This document shows positions 8,242-29,550 of a DNA stretch of 37,904 bases, piece after piece. The DNA is from Rhodospirillales bacterium (GTDB lineage Bacteria > Pseudomonadota > Alphaproteobacteria > BOG-932 > Roseiterribacteraceae): positions 1 to 37,904 of the forward strand of contig PLTD01000135.1 in the NCBI GenBank assembly GCA_003165335.1. The letters are read 5' to 3'. Made by a program: the position numbers and the translations under genes. The first letter of the stretch is position 1, and every line of letters begins with the position of its first letter. The notes beneath the pieces were generated by a model. It saw only the letters and a list, made by a program, of their open reading frames with translations, made no database searches and was not told the DNA's origin.

Positions 8242-8656
8242 AGCCAAACAGCCGGATTTTCTTGCCAAGCCAATAAACGCAATGACTGAATCTGAGTGGG
8301 AATCGCTATGCGACGGTTGCGGTCTATGTTGCCAGATACGTGTCGAAGACGAGGATACCGAAGAGATCGCGCTCTCTAATGTTGCCTGCCGGTTTCTGTG
8401 CTTGGAAACCAATCGCTGCAGCGACTACGCTAATCGGAAATCGAATGTTCCGGACTGCGTGAAGGTAACGCCCGAAACAGTTATGCAACTCGATTGGCTG
8501 CCGCATAGCTGCGGTTATCGGCTTGTTGCTTTCGGCATGCCGCTGCCATCTTGGCACCACCTGATCTGCGGCGATGCCAAACGCGTGCATTCCCGTGGGC
8601 CGTCAATGCTCGGCTCACTGATATCGGAAGACGACGCGGATTGGGAGGCGGCTTAG
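8228..8656 (+). CDS. YcgN/UPF0260 family protein, Cys-rich
   Basis: The 142-residue product resembles E. coli YcgN along its whole length. Near the start is [14 protein letters not shown], with the cysteine cluster CxxCGLCC, followed by [22 protein letters not shown], and LPHSCGYRL and LPSWHHL. The arrangement of conserved cysteines suggests metal or iron-sulfur binding, as proposed for the wider CxxCxxCC (YkgJ) group; the function is not known. I chose a GTG at 8228 preceded by GGGGA; the frame open from 8159 would translate an unrelated region of the methyltransferase gene. Its stop TAG overlaps the TAA of metXW on the other strand. Confidence 0.85.
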
Positions 8657-10500
8657 GTTGTCTGACGTCGTCGCTTCAGAAGGAATACCGCCTGTTCGCC
8701 GAACAAATTGGCCAGGCTTTTGGGCCGCACACTTTTCACGACGCGACCGACAGGACCCAACACGACGGTTTCCTCGATCTCGATATCCAGCGCCTTTGTG
8801 AGATCCAGGAAGTCGGCAATCGTGCACGGGTGAATATTGTAGGATTCCCACCAGCGATAGGCTCGCTCGCGGTCAATCGGTGATCGGCCGCGCAGCATCA
8901 AAGATAATCTGGTGCGCCAATGTCCATAGTTCTCAAACGAGACTACGGCGTGATGGCCGATGCGCAGAAGATGCTCCAGTACGGCACGCGGGTCGCGCAT
9001 CGCCTGCAGTGTCTTGGATAAAATCACGTAATCGAATGCGCCGTCGGCATATTCGGCGAGGTCGGTATTGGCGTCGCCCTGAATAACTGCAAGCCCATGG
9101 GCAAGTGAAAGATGAACACCATCCGGGTCGAGCTCCAGACCGCGTCCGTCGACGTCTTTGTCGTGTACGAGGTGCTCCAGCAGGGAGCCGTCTCCCGACC
9201 CGACATCGAGTGCTCGGCTCCCCGGCCTGACCATATCAGCGATAAGCTTAAGATCGGCACGGATGCCGCGGCGGGGTCGTGCCGCTTTGCGGTCCGCTTG
9301 TTGGGCCGTACTACGTGCTGCCAGGCCGTACTGCTCTGCACAGCCGTCCAGGAAGCCTTTGACGATCCGGAACAGTTCCGGCTCGTCGAGCAGAAAGGCA
9401 TCGTGGCCTTTGTCGGTTTCGATCTCGACGAAGGATACGGACGCGGAACCGGCGGTCAGCGCCTTAACAATAGCTCGCGATTCCGGAGTAGGAAACAGCC
9501 AGTCGCTCGTAAATGATACAAGCAAAAAGCGAACCGGTGACGAGGCGAAGGCATTCGCCAGCTGGCCGCCATGCTCCGCCGCCAAGTCGAAATAGTCCAT
9601 TGCGCGCGTGATATAGAGATAGGAATTGGCATCGAAGCGGTCGACGAAGGTCGACCCCTGGTGCCGCAAATAGCTTTCGACTTGGAAATCGGCATCGAAG
9701 CCGTAAGTCACCGCGATACGGTCTTGCAGATTGCGGCCGAATTTTCGGTGTAACGCAGTTTCCGAGAGATATGTGACGTGTGCGGCCATACGCGCGACGG
9801 CAAGCCCCCGGGACGGGTTGCGCCCAGCAGTATGATAGGAGCCGGCAGCCCAGTCCGGGTCGGCCATGATGGCTTGACGCCCGACTTCGTGGAACGCGAT
9901 GTTCTGTGAAGAATGACGCGCTGCAGTCGCGATGGGGATCGCGGCAAACACCCTTTCTGGATAGGACGTAGCCCACTCCAGTGCTTGCATTCCTCCCATC
10001 GACCCGCCGAGCACGGCGAACAGTTTATCTATACCCAGAGCGTCCAGCAGCAGAACTTGGGCACGAACCATGTCGGCAATTGTGATAACCGGGAAATTCA
10101 ATCCCCAGGGCTGTCCCGTAGCGGGATTGAGTTCGCGCGGGCCGGAACTGCCCATGCAACCGCCGATCACATTCGTGCAAATCACGAAGTAGCGGTCGGT
10201 GTCGACCGGTTTTCCCGGGCCGATCAGCGTCGACCACCAACCTGGTCTTCCGGTTAACGGATGGGCGCTTGCAGCATATTGGTCTCCTGTCAGCGCGTGA
10301 CAGACCAGAATAGCGTTCGTCTTCGAATCGTTCAGTAGGCCATATGTCTCATATGCAAGCGTAAAGGGACCCAGCACCGCGCCGCTGTCGAGCGGCATGG
10401 GTCGGCCCGAGGCCAGAATCATGGCCTGTACTGCCGGGGATTTTACCGGATCGCTGTCCGACTTCGACACCGGGCTGGCTACAAGAGGGGCCGAGTTCAT
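8653..10500 (-). CDS. metXW: MetX-MetW fusion protein
   Basis: One 615-residue frame joins two proteins that are normally separate neighbours. Residues 25-395 are MetX, a homoserine O-acyltransferase of the alpha/beta-hydrolase fold, with the nucleophile Ser167 in GGSMGG, Asp333 in SDWLF and His366 in KGHDAFL. Residues 415-612 are MetW, a SAM-methyltransferase-like protein with [10 protein letters not shown] at 431-440 and [10 protein letters not shown]. The link at about 396-412 is basic. MetX makes O-acetyl- or O-succinylhomoserine for methionine synthesis; which acyl donor is used cannot be told safely from these motifs. MetW is thought to assist MetX, so fusion fits. I see no frameshift or stop at the junction. 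Confidence 0.95.
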
Positions 10501-25076: not shown

Positions 25077-26942
25077 TTATTTCCCGTCGACGGTAAATGC
25101 CAGCAACGCGTTGCCGGGATGCTGGACGGGGGTGACCCCTGAATTCACCAGTAGAATGCCGTCGCCGATTGTCTGCCCTCCCATATCGATGGCACCGCCC
25201 TTGGCCTGAATTCCGTTGACGCCCGCAAAAGTCTGCGCCGTATCGAAATCCCACAAGATGCTGCCATCCTTGGCAGAATAGCCTCGAATATGACCATCCC
25301 ATGAGCCGACAAATACTAGGCCGGGAATTGCGGTTACGCCACTTGGCTGTGCCTTGGAGCAGTTGACTGTACCCCAACTGCACACCGGGTTGGGAGCGGG
25401 CGTGTGCCAGACGACTTCACCGGTTTCGGCATTGATTGCGGTTACTCCGCCGGGTTCGTTCGGGGCGATAGCGATTGCATCGCCTATAGCCACATAAACG
25501 TTCGCGCCATCTGCTGCCGGTCCCCATTCGACACCACCAGTGCTGCTCCCGCCCGCCAACTTACGTTGCCATAATAGCTTGCCTTTGGCTGCTGGGTCGA
25601 AACCATAGACCACGCTGGATTTTGCGCCTGCAAGGATGACTTGTTTGCCGTTGGGCAGAGTGTCGAGGATCGGCGAACTGCCGAAGTCATAGTCCGGGCC
25701 CGTCGGTTTCGGGCAGTTGCCTGCGGTTTGCTCCGGACAGCCAACGAGCCAATTATCATCTTTGCGAACTTGGTTAACCCAGCGCCGGGTTCCTGTGGCC
25801 ATATCCAGGGCCATCACGGCATCCGACGCATCCACCGGGACCTCGGTGTAGGAATCACCGGTGCCGATATAAATGAGCTGTCGCTTTGCATCAACTGTGG
25901 GGGAATCCCATATCGCTACGCCAGCCGGACCGAACATCTGCGTTCCCGTGGCATTAGTCCGAGTCTTCTTGGGTTTCTGCTGGATCGGATAGCTTTGCCA
26001 CAAGATTTTGCCCGTTGCAGCATCGAGTGCGACGACGCTGCCGCGGAATGTACAGCATTGATATGTCGGCGTGGCGCCTGAGACCTCCTCCATTGAGGAA
26101 ACGGGAACAAACAGGTGCCCGTCATACAGCTTCGGGGCGCCGGTGATGCGTGCCAGAGGGTGTTTTTCGACTGGTGTGGCCCAGATCGGCTCACCGGTCA
26201 TCGCATCTACCGCATGCGCAACGCCTTTTTCGTCGCCGAAATACGCCGCATATTTCGCATGAGGCCCTTTCGATAGAGCGCCGATGCTGATCGCAGTTCT
26301 AACAGGGGTCCCTAGATCATAGACCCAATGCGTGCAGCCGGTTTGTGCATCCAGCGAAAATACCTGCCCTTCGCGAGTTTCGATGAACACCCGCCCGCTC
26401 ACCATGATCGGTTGACCATAGGCGATGCCGGGATAAGCAAAGGCCCATTTGACCTTCAGTTTCGGAACGTCATCGCTCTTCAATCCCGGATTTGGCTGAT
26501 AGCGAGTATTCTCTGGATTATTGCCCCAACCGTTCCATCCCGGCTTAGTCAGATCGATCGGTCCTCCATCGCTCTTACAGAGATTGGCATGAATGTCGGG
26601 TTGTGGGTCGCTACCCGGCTCACGGCCGGTGAGATACACCGCGACGTCATGAATTTGGGTTGCGTCCAAAGTTTTTGCCATTGGGCGCATAACACCCTTT
26701 GAGAGGGTATTGATGATGCTTTCGGGTGACCTGAGCATCGATACAAAACTACGGGCAGGGATTCTCCCAGTTGGGTGATCGTGGCATTCCGCGCAATGCT
26801 GATCATAAACGGCGCCACCGTTCGAGGCTTCGCCCGAAGGGACGGCGCCGGCGGGTGCTTGAACAGGTTCGGCGAGAGATTTCGAGGGATGCCCGTAACC
26901 GATAACGGCAAAACTCAGCGCGGCGAGGAAATATCGATACAC
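25077..26942 (-). CDS. Periplasmic cytochrome c / PQQ-dependent dehydrogenase (PVA-dehydrogenase-like)
   Basis: The 621-residue product is a quinohemoprotein. From the GTG at 26942 a signal peptide ends near 23-25. A cytochrome c domain follows (CAECH at 50-54, likely Met88 axial ligand in RPMAKTL), then an eight-bladed PQQ propeller with repeated blade ends such as GSVVALDAATGKILWQ and TAINAETGEVVWHT. A vicinal Cys pair at 296-297 (YQCCTFRGS) is like the disulfide ring of PQQ alcohol dehydrogenases. The order of heme before PQQ, with CCTFRG, recalls polyvinyl alcohol dehydrogenase; real substrate unknown. AGGG precedes the GTG; an ATG at 27023 would add 27 charged residues and spoil the signal peptide. 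Confidence 0.87.
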   Translation of the reverse strand: MYRYFLAALSFAVIGYGHPSKSLAEPVQAPAGAVPSGEASNGGAVYDQHCAECHDHPTGRIPARSFVSMLRSPESIINTLSKGVMRPMAKTLDATQIHDVAVYLTGREPGSDPQPDIHANLCKSDGGPIDLTKPGWNGWGNNPENTRYQPNPGLKSDDVPKLKVKWAFAYPGIAYGQPIMVSGRVFIETREGQVFSLDAQTGCTHWVYDLGTPVRTAISIGALSKGPHAKYAAYFGDEKGVAHAVDAMTGEPIWATPVEKHPLARITGAPKLYDGHLFVPVSSMEEVSGATPTYQCCTFRGSVVALDAATGKILWQSYPIQQKPKKTRTNATGTQMFGPAGVAIWDSPTVDAKRQLIYIGTGDSYTEVPVDASDAVMALDMATGTRRWVNQVRKDDNWLVGCPEQTAGNCPKPTGPDYDFGSSPILDTLPNGKQVILAGAKSSVVYGFDPAAKGKLLWQRKLAGGSSTGGVEWGPAADGANVYVAIGDAIAIAPNEPGGVTAINAETGEVVWHTPAPNPVCSWGTVNCSKAQPSGVTAIPGLVFVGSWDGHIRGYSAKDGSILWDFDTAQTFAGVNGIQAKGGAIDMGGQTIGDGILLVNSGVTPVQHPGNALLAFTVDGK

Positions 26943-27150
26943 AGTAATCTTCCCTATCTCATGCGGCCTGGTGCGATCCAGGTCGTCCTTTGGGTCGTAA
27001 ATGAGTGAAGGCCGTTTACGCATTCTCCGGTTTCAATCCGGTCGGGGCAAGGAACAAGTTTAAGAAACGCAGGAAATTATGTGCAATGCCGTTACCTTCA
27101 GAGCACTGCAGTTTGGTCGGAGAGGCTAGCCGAGCAAGGGTGGCTATGCT
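26943..27150. other. Divergent gap between PQQ dehydrogenase and GNAT-DUF4118 genes
   Basis: No gene is convincing in these 208 bases. Two short frames cross it: one extends the PQQ gene to 27023, one of 61 codons on the plus strand has no homology that I can see. A small inverted repeat CCGG-TTTCAAT-CCGG lies near 27027-27041. No strong promoter pair was found. Confidence 0.4.
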
Positions 27151-28587
27151 TTGGAAAAGAATGTCAAAACGCTTCAAGTTAAAGACATGAAATTGCCTGT
27201 AAGCGGTTCGACGTTGGGTTCCGGATTCCCGACCGATCCTGGGGCTGAGAGGGCGGCATTATCCCGCTTGCGCGTGGCTGCAAACCTTTCGGGCGGAACC
27301 GCGGTTCGCGAAATTCGCACTGGAATCCAATCCGAATTCGATGGTTGGTGGTTTGGGCTTCGGCTCTGGCGATGGGGCACGAGAGTGGCCGACGCCGTGC
27401 TCTCGATTCGTGGCACCGGCGGCGGAGTCGCATCCGCGATTGAGCAATTCATGCGCCAGTCAGACATCGATGTGGCGCGCTTTGCAATCGTGCGATCACA
27501 GATGGAACCGGCCGACATCACACGGGAGGCACACAGTCGCCGGGGTGTTTGGTATTTTCTGGGCAGACAAGAACAGCGCGATCTGCTGACGATTGGCTCT
27601 GAAATTAATTCTTTCGTCGCCGGTCTTGGTCGCGGCTTGCGGCGAAATATAAGGCGAACCGCGCGCGTTGTTGCTGAACTAGGTATTCGATACTCATTTC
27701 ATGAGAGGTCGGGTCCACTAGAAGTTGGCGAAGAAGTTGCTGGTCTCGCAGCACGCAATCGCCCGGTAGCCATTCCTTTAGAGGGATTGGATGTCTTCGA
27801 GGGAATGTTGTCGCATCGACCGACGAGCTTCGAGTCTCGTTTGGATGCAGAAGACGGATCATTAATTAGCTTGTGCCGCGGTTTTATTCAGGGTCGCACA
27901 GCCTATTTGGTCTATCAAATGAACGATCCGGCACGATCGAAAATCAGCTTGGGCTTATTCCATAATTTTAAGTTGATAGAAGAATTAATGGCGCTTGGTG
28001 CGACCGAATTGATTTTTGTCATGGGTGCGCATCAACTTAAGTCGGCCTGCCGAATTTCATCGAAGGACGAACTTATTACGATCCGTCCAACTGTTCGGGG
28101 TCTGGCGATCGCGCTTACGCTCGCGGTCGCTCTGAGGGGAACGCGCTTCGGTGATGGGGTAAGGGAAGTTCTTAAATCCATCGCCCGTTACTGGTTCGGA
28201 TTACCGAAAGCGGCCTATGATCGGAGGGTAAACTTGCTGACGCCTCCCGGCAAGAATTGGGCACCGGCGATAGCTGCACTCCTCGGTGTTGGCGTATCGA
28301 TCGGAGCGGTGGCTGCCGGGGTTATGATGCGACAAGGTCTGGGCTCATTATCCTATATTATGGCTTACCCGGCATTCATGGTTGCCACCTATTTTGCCGG
28401 CGCTTGGACTGGACTGCTAACGATTGCGCTGGGTGGCTTGGGAATTTTATACTACGTCATTCCACCGTATAATTCATTCGCACTCGAACGGGCCAGCGAC
28501 ATTTGGGCCACGGCGATCTATATGGTGAGCGCATTGGGGCTTTGGCGTTGGTGGGCGCGCCGGACCAAGCCACTGCAAGCAGTCTAA
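27151..28587 (+). CDS. Fusion of GNAT (BioF2/FemAB-like) and DUF4118 membrane module
   Basis: This 478-residue protein joins two parts rarely seen together. Residues 105-300 look like an Acetyltransf_6 (BioF2/CelD/FemAB-like) GNAT domain: GLRRNIRRTARVVAELGI is the basic helix of that family, and GLFHNFKLIEELMALGATEL, with GFIQGRTAYLVYQ before it, is the acyl-CoA region. Residues 368-468 hold about four membrane helices; AYPAFMVATYFAGAWTGLLTI and YYVIPPYNSF match DUF4118, the KdpD-type sensor membrane domain. No HisKA, HATPase or GAF part follows. The start is unsure: a TTG at 27151 with AAGGG ten bases upstream, or an ATG at 27187. The region looks a little more A+T-rich than its neighbours. 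Function unknown. Confidence 0.75.
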   Translation: MEKNVKTLQVKDMKLPVSGSTLGSGFPTDPGAERAALSRLRVAANLSGGTAVREIRTGIQSEFDGWWFGLRLWRWGTRVADAVLSIRGTGGGVASAIEQFMRQSDIDVARFAIVRSQMEPADITREAHSRRGVWYFLGRQEQRDLLTIGSEINSFVAGLGRGLRRNIRRTARVVAELGIRYSFHERSGPLEVGEEVAGLAARNRPVAIPLEGLDVFEGMLSHRPTSFESRLDAEDGSLISLCRGFIQGRTAYLVYQMNDPARSKISLGLFHNFKLIEELMALGATELIFVMGAHQLKSACRISSKDELITIRPTVRGLAIALTLAVALRGTRFGDGVREVLKSIARYWFGLPKAAYDRRVNLLTPPGKNWAPAIAALLGVGVSIGAVAAGVMMRQGLGSLSYIMAYPAFMVATYFAGAWTGLLTIALGGLGILYYVIPPYNSFALERASDIWATAIYMVSALGLWRWWARRTKPLQAV

Positions 28588-28629: not shown

Positions 28630-29550
28630 GTGTCCATTTCAAGCGACAGTAAAGCAGAATGTCTTTTGCCTGCAATCCAAGCGCGAGTGGTCAACGCTAA
28701 CGGCCTGTCGTTTGAGATACTCGAGAGCGGAGGGGGCGATAAACTCGTCCTTTGTTTGCACGGCTTCCCGTCTCATGCGATCTGCTGGCGAGATCAGCTT
28801 CCAGCTTTGGCCCGTCTCGGTTTTCGTGCTTGGGCTCCTAATCAACGTGGGTATGGCGGAACATCCCGCCCCAAGGGTTCTATAAACTACACCGTTGACC
28901 TTCTTCTTGCCGATATCGCCGCCGTCATCGACGCTTCGGGTGCGCGTTCGACAGTAATAATCGCCCACGACTGGGGTGGATTACTGGCTTGGTTCTTTGC
29001 CGCTCGACGCATACGACCCATAGCCAAGCTGATCATTCTGAATGCGCCGCACCCGGCCTGTGCCGCCGTAGCCTATCGCCGTTGGCGGCAGATGCGAAAA
29101 GGTTGGTACATATTGGCTTTCCAGATTCCCTGGGTGCCGGACTTTATCCTGGGATTTAATCGTGCTTGGCTCATTGGTAAACTAATTGCCTGGGTAGCTG
29201 GACCAAGGAAAGTTTTCGATGCGGCCACGCTCGACTTTTATCGATCGAACGCATCCGGTCGCGGTGCTGTTACGGCAATGCTGAATTGGTATCGTGGCCT
29301 GACGCGCGGCGGTGTTCCCCTCGAAATGGCCGGACGTTTTCCAACAATTGACACGCCTGCACTCATAATCTGGGGCGAGGGCGACGTGGCTCTCGATCGG
29401 TCATGCATCGAGGGGGTTGAGGCATATGTCCCAAACGTCACCATTCGCTATCTTCCGGGTGTCTCCCATTGGGTGCAGGAGGAAGTCCCCGATACGGTTA
29501 ACCGTCTGATCGAAGCATTCCTGACTGATCGCCTAGTTCCCGACCACTGA
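28630..29550 (+). CDS. Alpha/beta hydrolase, epoxide-hydrolase-like
   Basis: The 306-residue product has the core alpha/beta-hydrolase landmarks: HGFP oxyanion-hole loop at 44-47, the nucleophile elbow HDWGG with Asp114 (an aspartate, as in epoxide hydrolases and haloalkane dehalogenases), an acid near Asp252-Asp256 and the catalytic His280 in GVSHW. The path RGYGGTSRP after strand 4 is also typical of epoxide hydrolases. No signal peptide is seen, so it is cytosolic. The start is GTG at 28630 with AGGAAA nine bases before it. It follows the GNAT-DUF4118 gene by 42 bases and converges on hbd with only three bases between the stops. Substrate unknown. Confidence 0.87.
   Translation: MSISSDSKAECLLPAIQARVVNANGLSFEILESGGGDKLVLCLHGFPSHAICWRDQLPALARLGFRAWAPNQRGYGGTSRPKGSINYTVDLLLADIAAVIDASGARSTVIIAHDWGGLLAWFFAARRIRPIAKLIILNAPHPACAAVAYRRWRQMRKGWYILAFQIPWVPDFILGFNRAWLIGKLIAWVAGPRKVFDAATLDFYRSNASGRGAVTAMLNWYRGLTRGGVPLEMAGRFPTIDTPALIIWGEGDVALDRSCIEGVEAYVPNVTIRYLPGVSHWVQEEVPDTVNRLIEAFLTDRLVPDH

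Follow-up and report, generated by a model that had tools for sequence, protein, structure and literature searches.

Almost everywhere that DUF4118 is known, it opens a sensor kinase, and we know of no ligand for it. Many of the FemX, FemA, peptide synthase and MprF proteins, which are the fold neighbours of the protein described here, act on envelope molecules, and to our knowledge none of the Fem enzymes carries a DUF4118 domain. The Caulobacter protein HfsK is a FemX-like tandem GNAT which is active only when it is associated with the membrane via its C-terminal extension; the protein is soluble, and at high c-di-GMP it is released from the membrane through this 25-residue tail (PMC5362036). 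As for the DUF4118 kinases, two reports describe KdpD as a four-span protein with both of its large domains in the cytoplasm (PMC6581901, PMC2440551). Finally, in the lpiA-acvB pair a lipid aminoacyl synthase is operonic with an alpha/beta hydrolase (PMC13197417).

The window, i.e. the whole stretch of 37,904 nucleotides that was analysed (contig PLTD01000135.1 of a Rhodospirillales bacterium), contains a gene in which, as judged from the reading frame, the Pfam matches and the structure model, a tandem GNAT transferase is fused to a C-terminal DUF4118 (27151..28587, + strand). The frame is open throughout and encodes 478 aa when counted from the TTG, while the in-frame ATG at 27187 (residue 13 of the 478-aa frame), which gives a 466-aa product, is more likely to be the start. 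An earlier note had proposed a BioF2/CelD/FemAB-type transferase in the first 300 residues and a DUF4118 closing the protein, with no kinase or cyclase output. The Pfam scan bore out both domain calls and their order: Acetyltransf_6 (PF13480) was found at residues 163-297 (24.6 bits, cut-off 22, E 3.2e-5) and DUF4118 (PF13493) at residues 378-462 (29.1 bits, cut-off 28.4, E 8.9e-7), both above the Pfam gathering scores. In the ortholog from a sister genome (G002, the MAG 'Rhodospirillales bacterium RYN_452') the scores were 27.6 bits for PF13480 and 28.3 bits, 0.1 below the cut-off, for PF13493.

Since the Pfam scores of both domains were modest, profile-profile and other checks were added. 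With hhalign the C-terminus of the window protein and its ortholog matched DUF4118 domains from related genomes (97.8%, E 9.5e-13), and the GNAT part matched PF13480 proteins from nearby genomes (95%, E 1.7e-8), while the control profiles (kinase, KdpD N-terminal and MprF) gave essentially no match, about 0. By blastp the DUF4118 part matched DUF4118 kinases (E 1e-8), and in the alignment its YYVIPPYNSF segment falls on the YFFxPPxxSF stretch that is conserved in DUF4118, the common signature being YY(V/L)xPPxxSF. The similarity of the fused protein to other PF13480 proteins by blastp was weak. No kinase or cyclase output domain was detected in the ORF, HisKA, HisKA_2 and HATPase_c being absent from the Pfam scan at E <= 10, and no kinase output follows downstream either, where the next gene on the same strand encodes an alpha/beta hydrolase. 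The NCBIfam scan of the fused protein matched no family; in the Pfam scan no match at E <= 10 was obtained for FemAB (with the HMMER weak-match filter applied) or for PF09924 (LPG_synthase_C).

A first AlphaFold model built from four sequences reached a pLDDT of 64, and its GNAT part was usable. A wide alignment in which PF13480 enzymes were mixed with the query was dropped for modelling, the GNAT part being misaligned in it. When DUF4118 fragments were added, the second model had a mean pLDDT of 81 and a pTM of 0.67 with four confident membrane helices; its alignment held 23 sequences including the DUF4118 rows, which limits how far the relative placement of the two lobes and their position against the membrane domain can be read. 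In the model a tandem GNAT makes up the enzyme part, at residues ~30-311, and Pfam detects only its second lobe. The first lobe (residues 30-147, 27238..27591, +) has no Pfam match, while the second (residues 152-311, 27604..28083, +) includes the Acetyltransf_6 match at 27637-28041. A linker (residues 312-363, 28084..28239, +) with a hydrophobic helix at 315-327 and a cationic amphipathic helix at 332-349 leads to the DUF4118 (28264..28584, +; PF13493 at 28282-28536), where the helices 372-392, 401-416, 418-435 and 448-477 are modelled with a pLDDT of ~90-95.

The best match of the model by VIA-align was FemX 6snr (Z 16.1, rmsd 5.2, 282 residues aligned, the identity to Fem enzymes being ~10%), followed by FemA 1lrz (Z 14.6), the Weissella FemX (Z 14) and aminoacyl-tRNA-dependent peptide synthases (Z 13). 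MprF catalytic domains gave Z values of 12-13 over ~250 residues (12.8 for 4v36), lower than FemX and similar to further tandem GNATs, with a range of 10-13 across the MprF/LpiA proteins. In the Foldseek search MprF catalytic domains and FemX came out on top with E values near 1e-8 to 1e-9 (4v36 E 2e-9). These fold matches hardly cover the fused protein beyond residue 334, and a shared fold is no proof of function. Nevertheless, the FemX-like fold together with the confident four-helix domain supports the earlier suggestion of a membrane-anchored aminoacyl- or acyltransferase, at the level of a model and with its chemistry presumed.

Residues R164, R165, N166, Y255, Q256, N258, D259 and H271 do not vary among the four members of the family, the GNAT-only relatives included. 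In the first lobe an RxxGxG motif (RGTGGG, residues 87-92, 27409..27426, +) resembling the acyl-CoA P-loop is placed by the model between a strand and the next helix. In acyl-CoA GNATs such a strand-helix loop is the place where the pyrophosphate is bound; the two loops were equated by the order of the elements and not by superposition. The ortholog has RDSGAG here, and the GNAT-only relatives lack the motif. Its chance occurrence at this spot is about 1%, yet a motif of this kind is expected about once in every 350 aa. The motif hints at an acyl-CoA donor, whereas aminoacyl-tRNA is the usual donor among the nearest folds. No (R/Q)xxGx(G/A) acyl-CoA loop was found in the second lobe.

The first and the last DUF4118 helices have flanks rich in K/R, and the loops 1-2 and 2-3 carry no positive residues. 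From this charge pattern both termini should be cytoplasmic, and therefore the GNAT lobes, the predicted catalytic part, should face the cytoplasm as well. KdpD has the same four-helix module, also preceded by a cytoplasmic domain of ~350 residues; it differs in the modules around it, because the fused protein lacks KdpD/Usp, PAS, HisKA, HisKA_2 and HATPase domains and its chain stops after TM4. The extension following the GNAT lobes is common to the fused proteins and to a GNAT-only paralog, in which the amphipathic moment is weaker. As the paralog has this extension, membrane proximity may predate the fusion.

The alpha/beta hydrolase gene (28630..29550, +) starts 42 bp downstream of the fused gene. 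Its product is of the epoxide-hydrolase type, with the epoxide hydrolase 5ng7 as the best solved relative (E 8.6e-59) and an HDWGG motif in which the Asp is expected to be the nucleophile. Both genes are present in the source genome (G000) and in G002, and neither was found in two other genomes of the family, G003 and G004. The neighbouring gene for 3-hydroxybutyryl-CoA dehydrogenase is retained in both G003 and G004, and in G003 it stands next to a different gene. The fused gene and the hydrolase gene probably form an operon. No envelope or polysaccharide gene cluster was seen near the fused gene, the neighbours being housekeeping genes, a PQQ dehydrogenase gene and the epoxide-hydrolase-type gene. 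The PQQ-dependent dehydrogenase-like beta-propeller, which has an N-terminal cytochrome c domain, is encoded at 25077-27023 (-) and diverges from the fused gene; in G002, to judge by the ORFs lying upstream of the ortholog, a PQQ dehydrogenase-like gene adjoins too.

In order to see how common the architecture is, protein and alignment queries were run, and the fused gene was found in the source genome and G002 alone. No copy was detected in G001, a 65% complete genome of the same genus, in G003 and G004 of the same family, or in 380 further alphaproteobacterial genomes. An alignment search of a 398-genome phylum sample gave no additional relative, the plasmid search no relatives of the fused protein, and a scan of genome contigs returned nothing beyond the sister MAG and a single GNAT-only protein of a Hyphomicrobiaceae MAG. 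PF13493 is present in 78 of the 385 alphaproteobacterial genomes, and among the PF13480 matches listed from these genomes the ortholog pair is the only case of a DUF4118 closing a large protein, so that the architecture is restricted to one genus in this sample; such a survey could miss an unrelated fusion whose GNAT part scores very weakly and whose frame exceeds 600 aa. In the other DUF4118 frames of <600 aa, nearly all of which were checked, at most 96 residues precede the domain and at least 200 follow it, barring cut contigs and one exception, a stand-alone 155-aa frame (L137, G361:C1:3282806-3283096) with 27.4 bits, just under the cut-off, and no kinase. The scanned frames of this size were all kinases but for one PAS protein in which no kinase domain was found, and the longer frames sampled were KdpD-like or had the DUF4118 near the N-terminus. 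In the papers searched, as far as their accessible text goes, a DUF4118 together with an acetyltransferase is not described, the sole co-mention concerning gougerotin production, and the search for PF13480 plus acyltransferase yielded no paper. The architecture is thus rare in the sampled genomes and is a new combination of known modules.

The GNAT-only relatives are a G002 paralog with 33% identity and the protein of the Hyphomicrobiaceae MAG with 28% identity. Beside the paralog (L004 1372-2655 (-); L013) lie an ORF resembling TonB-dependent receptors and a response regulator of the OmpR type, both named by eye. The closest DUF4118 relatives in the sampled set belong to PAS/HisKA and HisKA_2 kinases and not to KdpD. 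Since relatives without DUF4118 exist, the module probably joined an existing transferase; most simply, one member of this small transferase family gained it.

The best supported claim is that of a membrane-anchored tandem-GNAT transferase, of which we infer the topology, the catalysis, the donor and the acceptor. On balance we lean towards an integral inner-membrane tandem-GNAT enzyme, anchored by DUF4118, which modifies a membrane-associated envelope precursor. In this model a FemX/CelD/HfsK-like catalytic unit would be placed in the cytoplasm and held at the membrane first by the amphipathic helix of the conserved linker and then by the four-helix DUF4118 bundle, which would serve mainly as a permanent anchor positioning the active site. 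An acyl or aminoacyl group would then be passed at the inner-membrane surface to an acceptor accessible on the inner-leaflet side; a phospholipid head group, a glycolipid and a lipid-linked saccharide would be candidates. The fused protein shares with HfsK (CC3689) the FemX-like tandem-GNAT plan and a C-terminal element tying the enzyme to the inner membrane; the 25-residue tail is replaced here by an integral four-helix DUF4118, and so by analogy the protein looks like a permanently anchored counterpart of HfsK. HfsK, which we take to belong to the PF13480 family as the second lobe does, was compared by its description and not by sequence. The FemABX enzymes (FemX 6snr and 1ne9, FemA 1lrz) give the best fold match for the whole catalytic part (VIA Z 14-16), but the fused protein has no FemAB profile match and an identity of ~10% to them. 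MprF/LpiA also combines a tandem-GNAT catalytic domain with membrane helices in a single chain; its many-helix membrane domain is, however, N-terminal and its catalytic domain is a DUF2156, whereas in the fused protein the order is reversed, the helices are four and DUF2156 is unmatched. With MprF using an N-terminal membrane domain and HfsK a reversible tail, this would be a third mode of tethering a Fem-fold transferase to the membrane.

An origin of the fusion in misassembly or in a frame that is open by chance has a negligible probability and is already refuted by the ortholog. The source genome is fragmented (265 contigs) with an estimated contamination of 4.5%, but the second genome has a 64% identical fused gene with both domains and in the same gene order. 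Between the two genes the differences at first, second and third codon positions number 136/95/279, so that third positions vary about twice as much as first and three times as much as second positions. The NG86 estimates were dN 0.29 and dS about 2.7 for the whole gene pair and dN 0.25 and dS 1.6 for the DUF4118 part alone; dS is near saturation and could not be estimated in 2 of the 4 regions, therefore the dN/dS ratio is approximate. Both the enzyme and the DUF4118 halves are under purifying selection, and the DUF4118 is no decaying tail. A real gene could still encode a GNAT pseudoenzyme that acts as a non-catalytic membrane scaffold or regulator, an improbable case in our judgement. The lack of the classical (R/Q)xxGx(G/A) loop in the second lobe and the weak similarity to other PF13480 proteins would fit it; however, many PF13480 proteins are likewise without this acyl-CoA loop, as are the Fem-type enzymes, and the polar and aromatic positions listed above are invariant in all four family members.

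The role of the DUF4118 also admits a different reading, in which it is a working sensor: a membrane signal would shift the helix bundle and switch the transferase on or off without a kinase. We regard this as unlikely, though deserving attention. In the kinases the signal is relayed via the helix after TM4, while here the chain stops right after TM4 and the signal would need a return route through TM1 and the linker. On the other hand, the most similar DUF4118 domains serve as input modules in HisKA_2 and PAS kinases, the domain is constrained in the ortholog pair as strongly as the enzyme, beyond the need of a bare anchor, and the membrane binding of HfsK is itself regulated (PMC5362036). 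The more specific proposal, that a kinase input module was recruited onto an envelope-modifying tandem GNAT to give a one-protein membrane-signal circuit with no phosphorelay, appears rather doubtful. With DUF4118 as the sole partner of an enzyme, the protein offers a small system for asking whether the module is a sensor or an anchor. It is also hardly probable that the enzyme is an aminoacyl-phospholipid synthase like the catalytic domain of MprF, working at the inner leaflet with DUF4118 in place of the MprF membrane domain. In its favour, Foldseek ranks MprF catalytic domains near the top (4v36 E 2e-9), their VIA Z values being 12-13, and lpiA-acvB (PMC13197417) provides an operon precedent. 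Nonetheless, PF09924 was unmatched, the hhalign probability was 1-11% when genuine DUF2156 domains of the genus and family were compared, and a full-length MprF/LpiA homolog is already encoded elsewhere in the genome, in an 872-aa frame (L114, G000:C23:5130-5999). The neighbouring hydrolase is epoxide-hydrolase-like and has no signal peptide evident in its sequence, unlike the periplasmic AcvB. Since the hydrolase differs in type and apparent location, DUF2156 fails and a separate MprF homolog exists, the pairing of an MprF-type synthase with a lipid-aminoacyl hydrolase was set aside and the protein was not filed as a lipid aminoacyl synthase.

Another fusion was observed elsewhere in the window: a 615-aa ORF at 8653-10500 (-) joins MetX (homoserine O-acetyltransferase, residues 21-389) to MetW (residues 414-608), and each part exceeds the cut-off of its own NCBIfam model.
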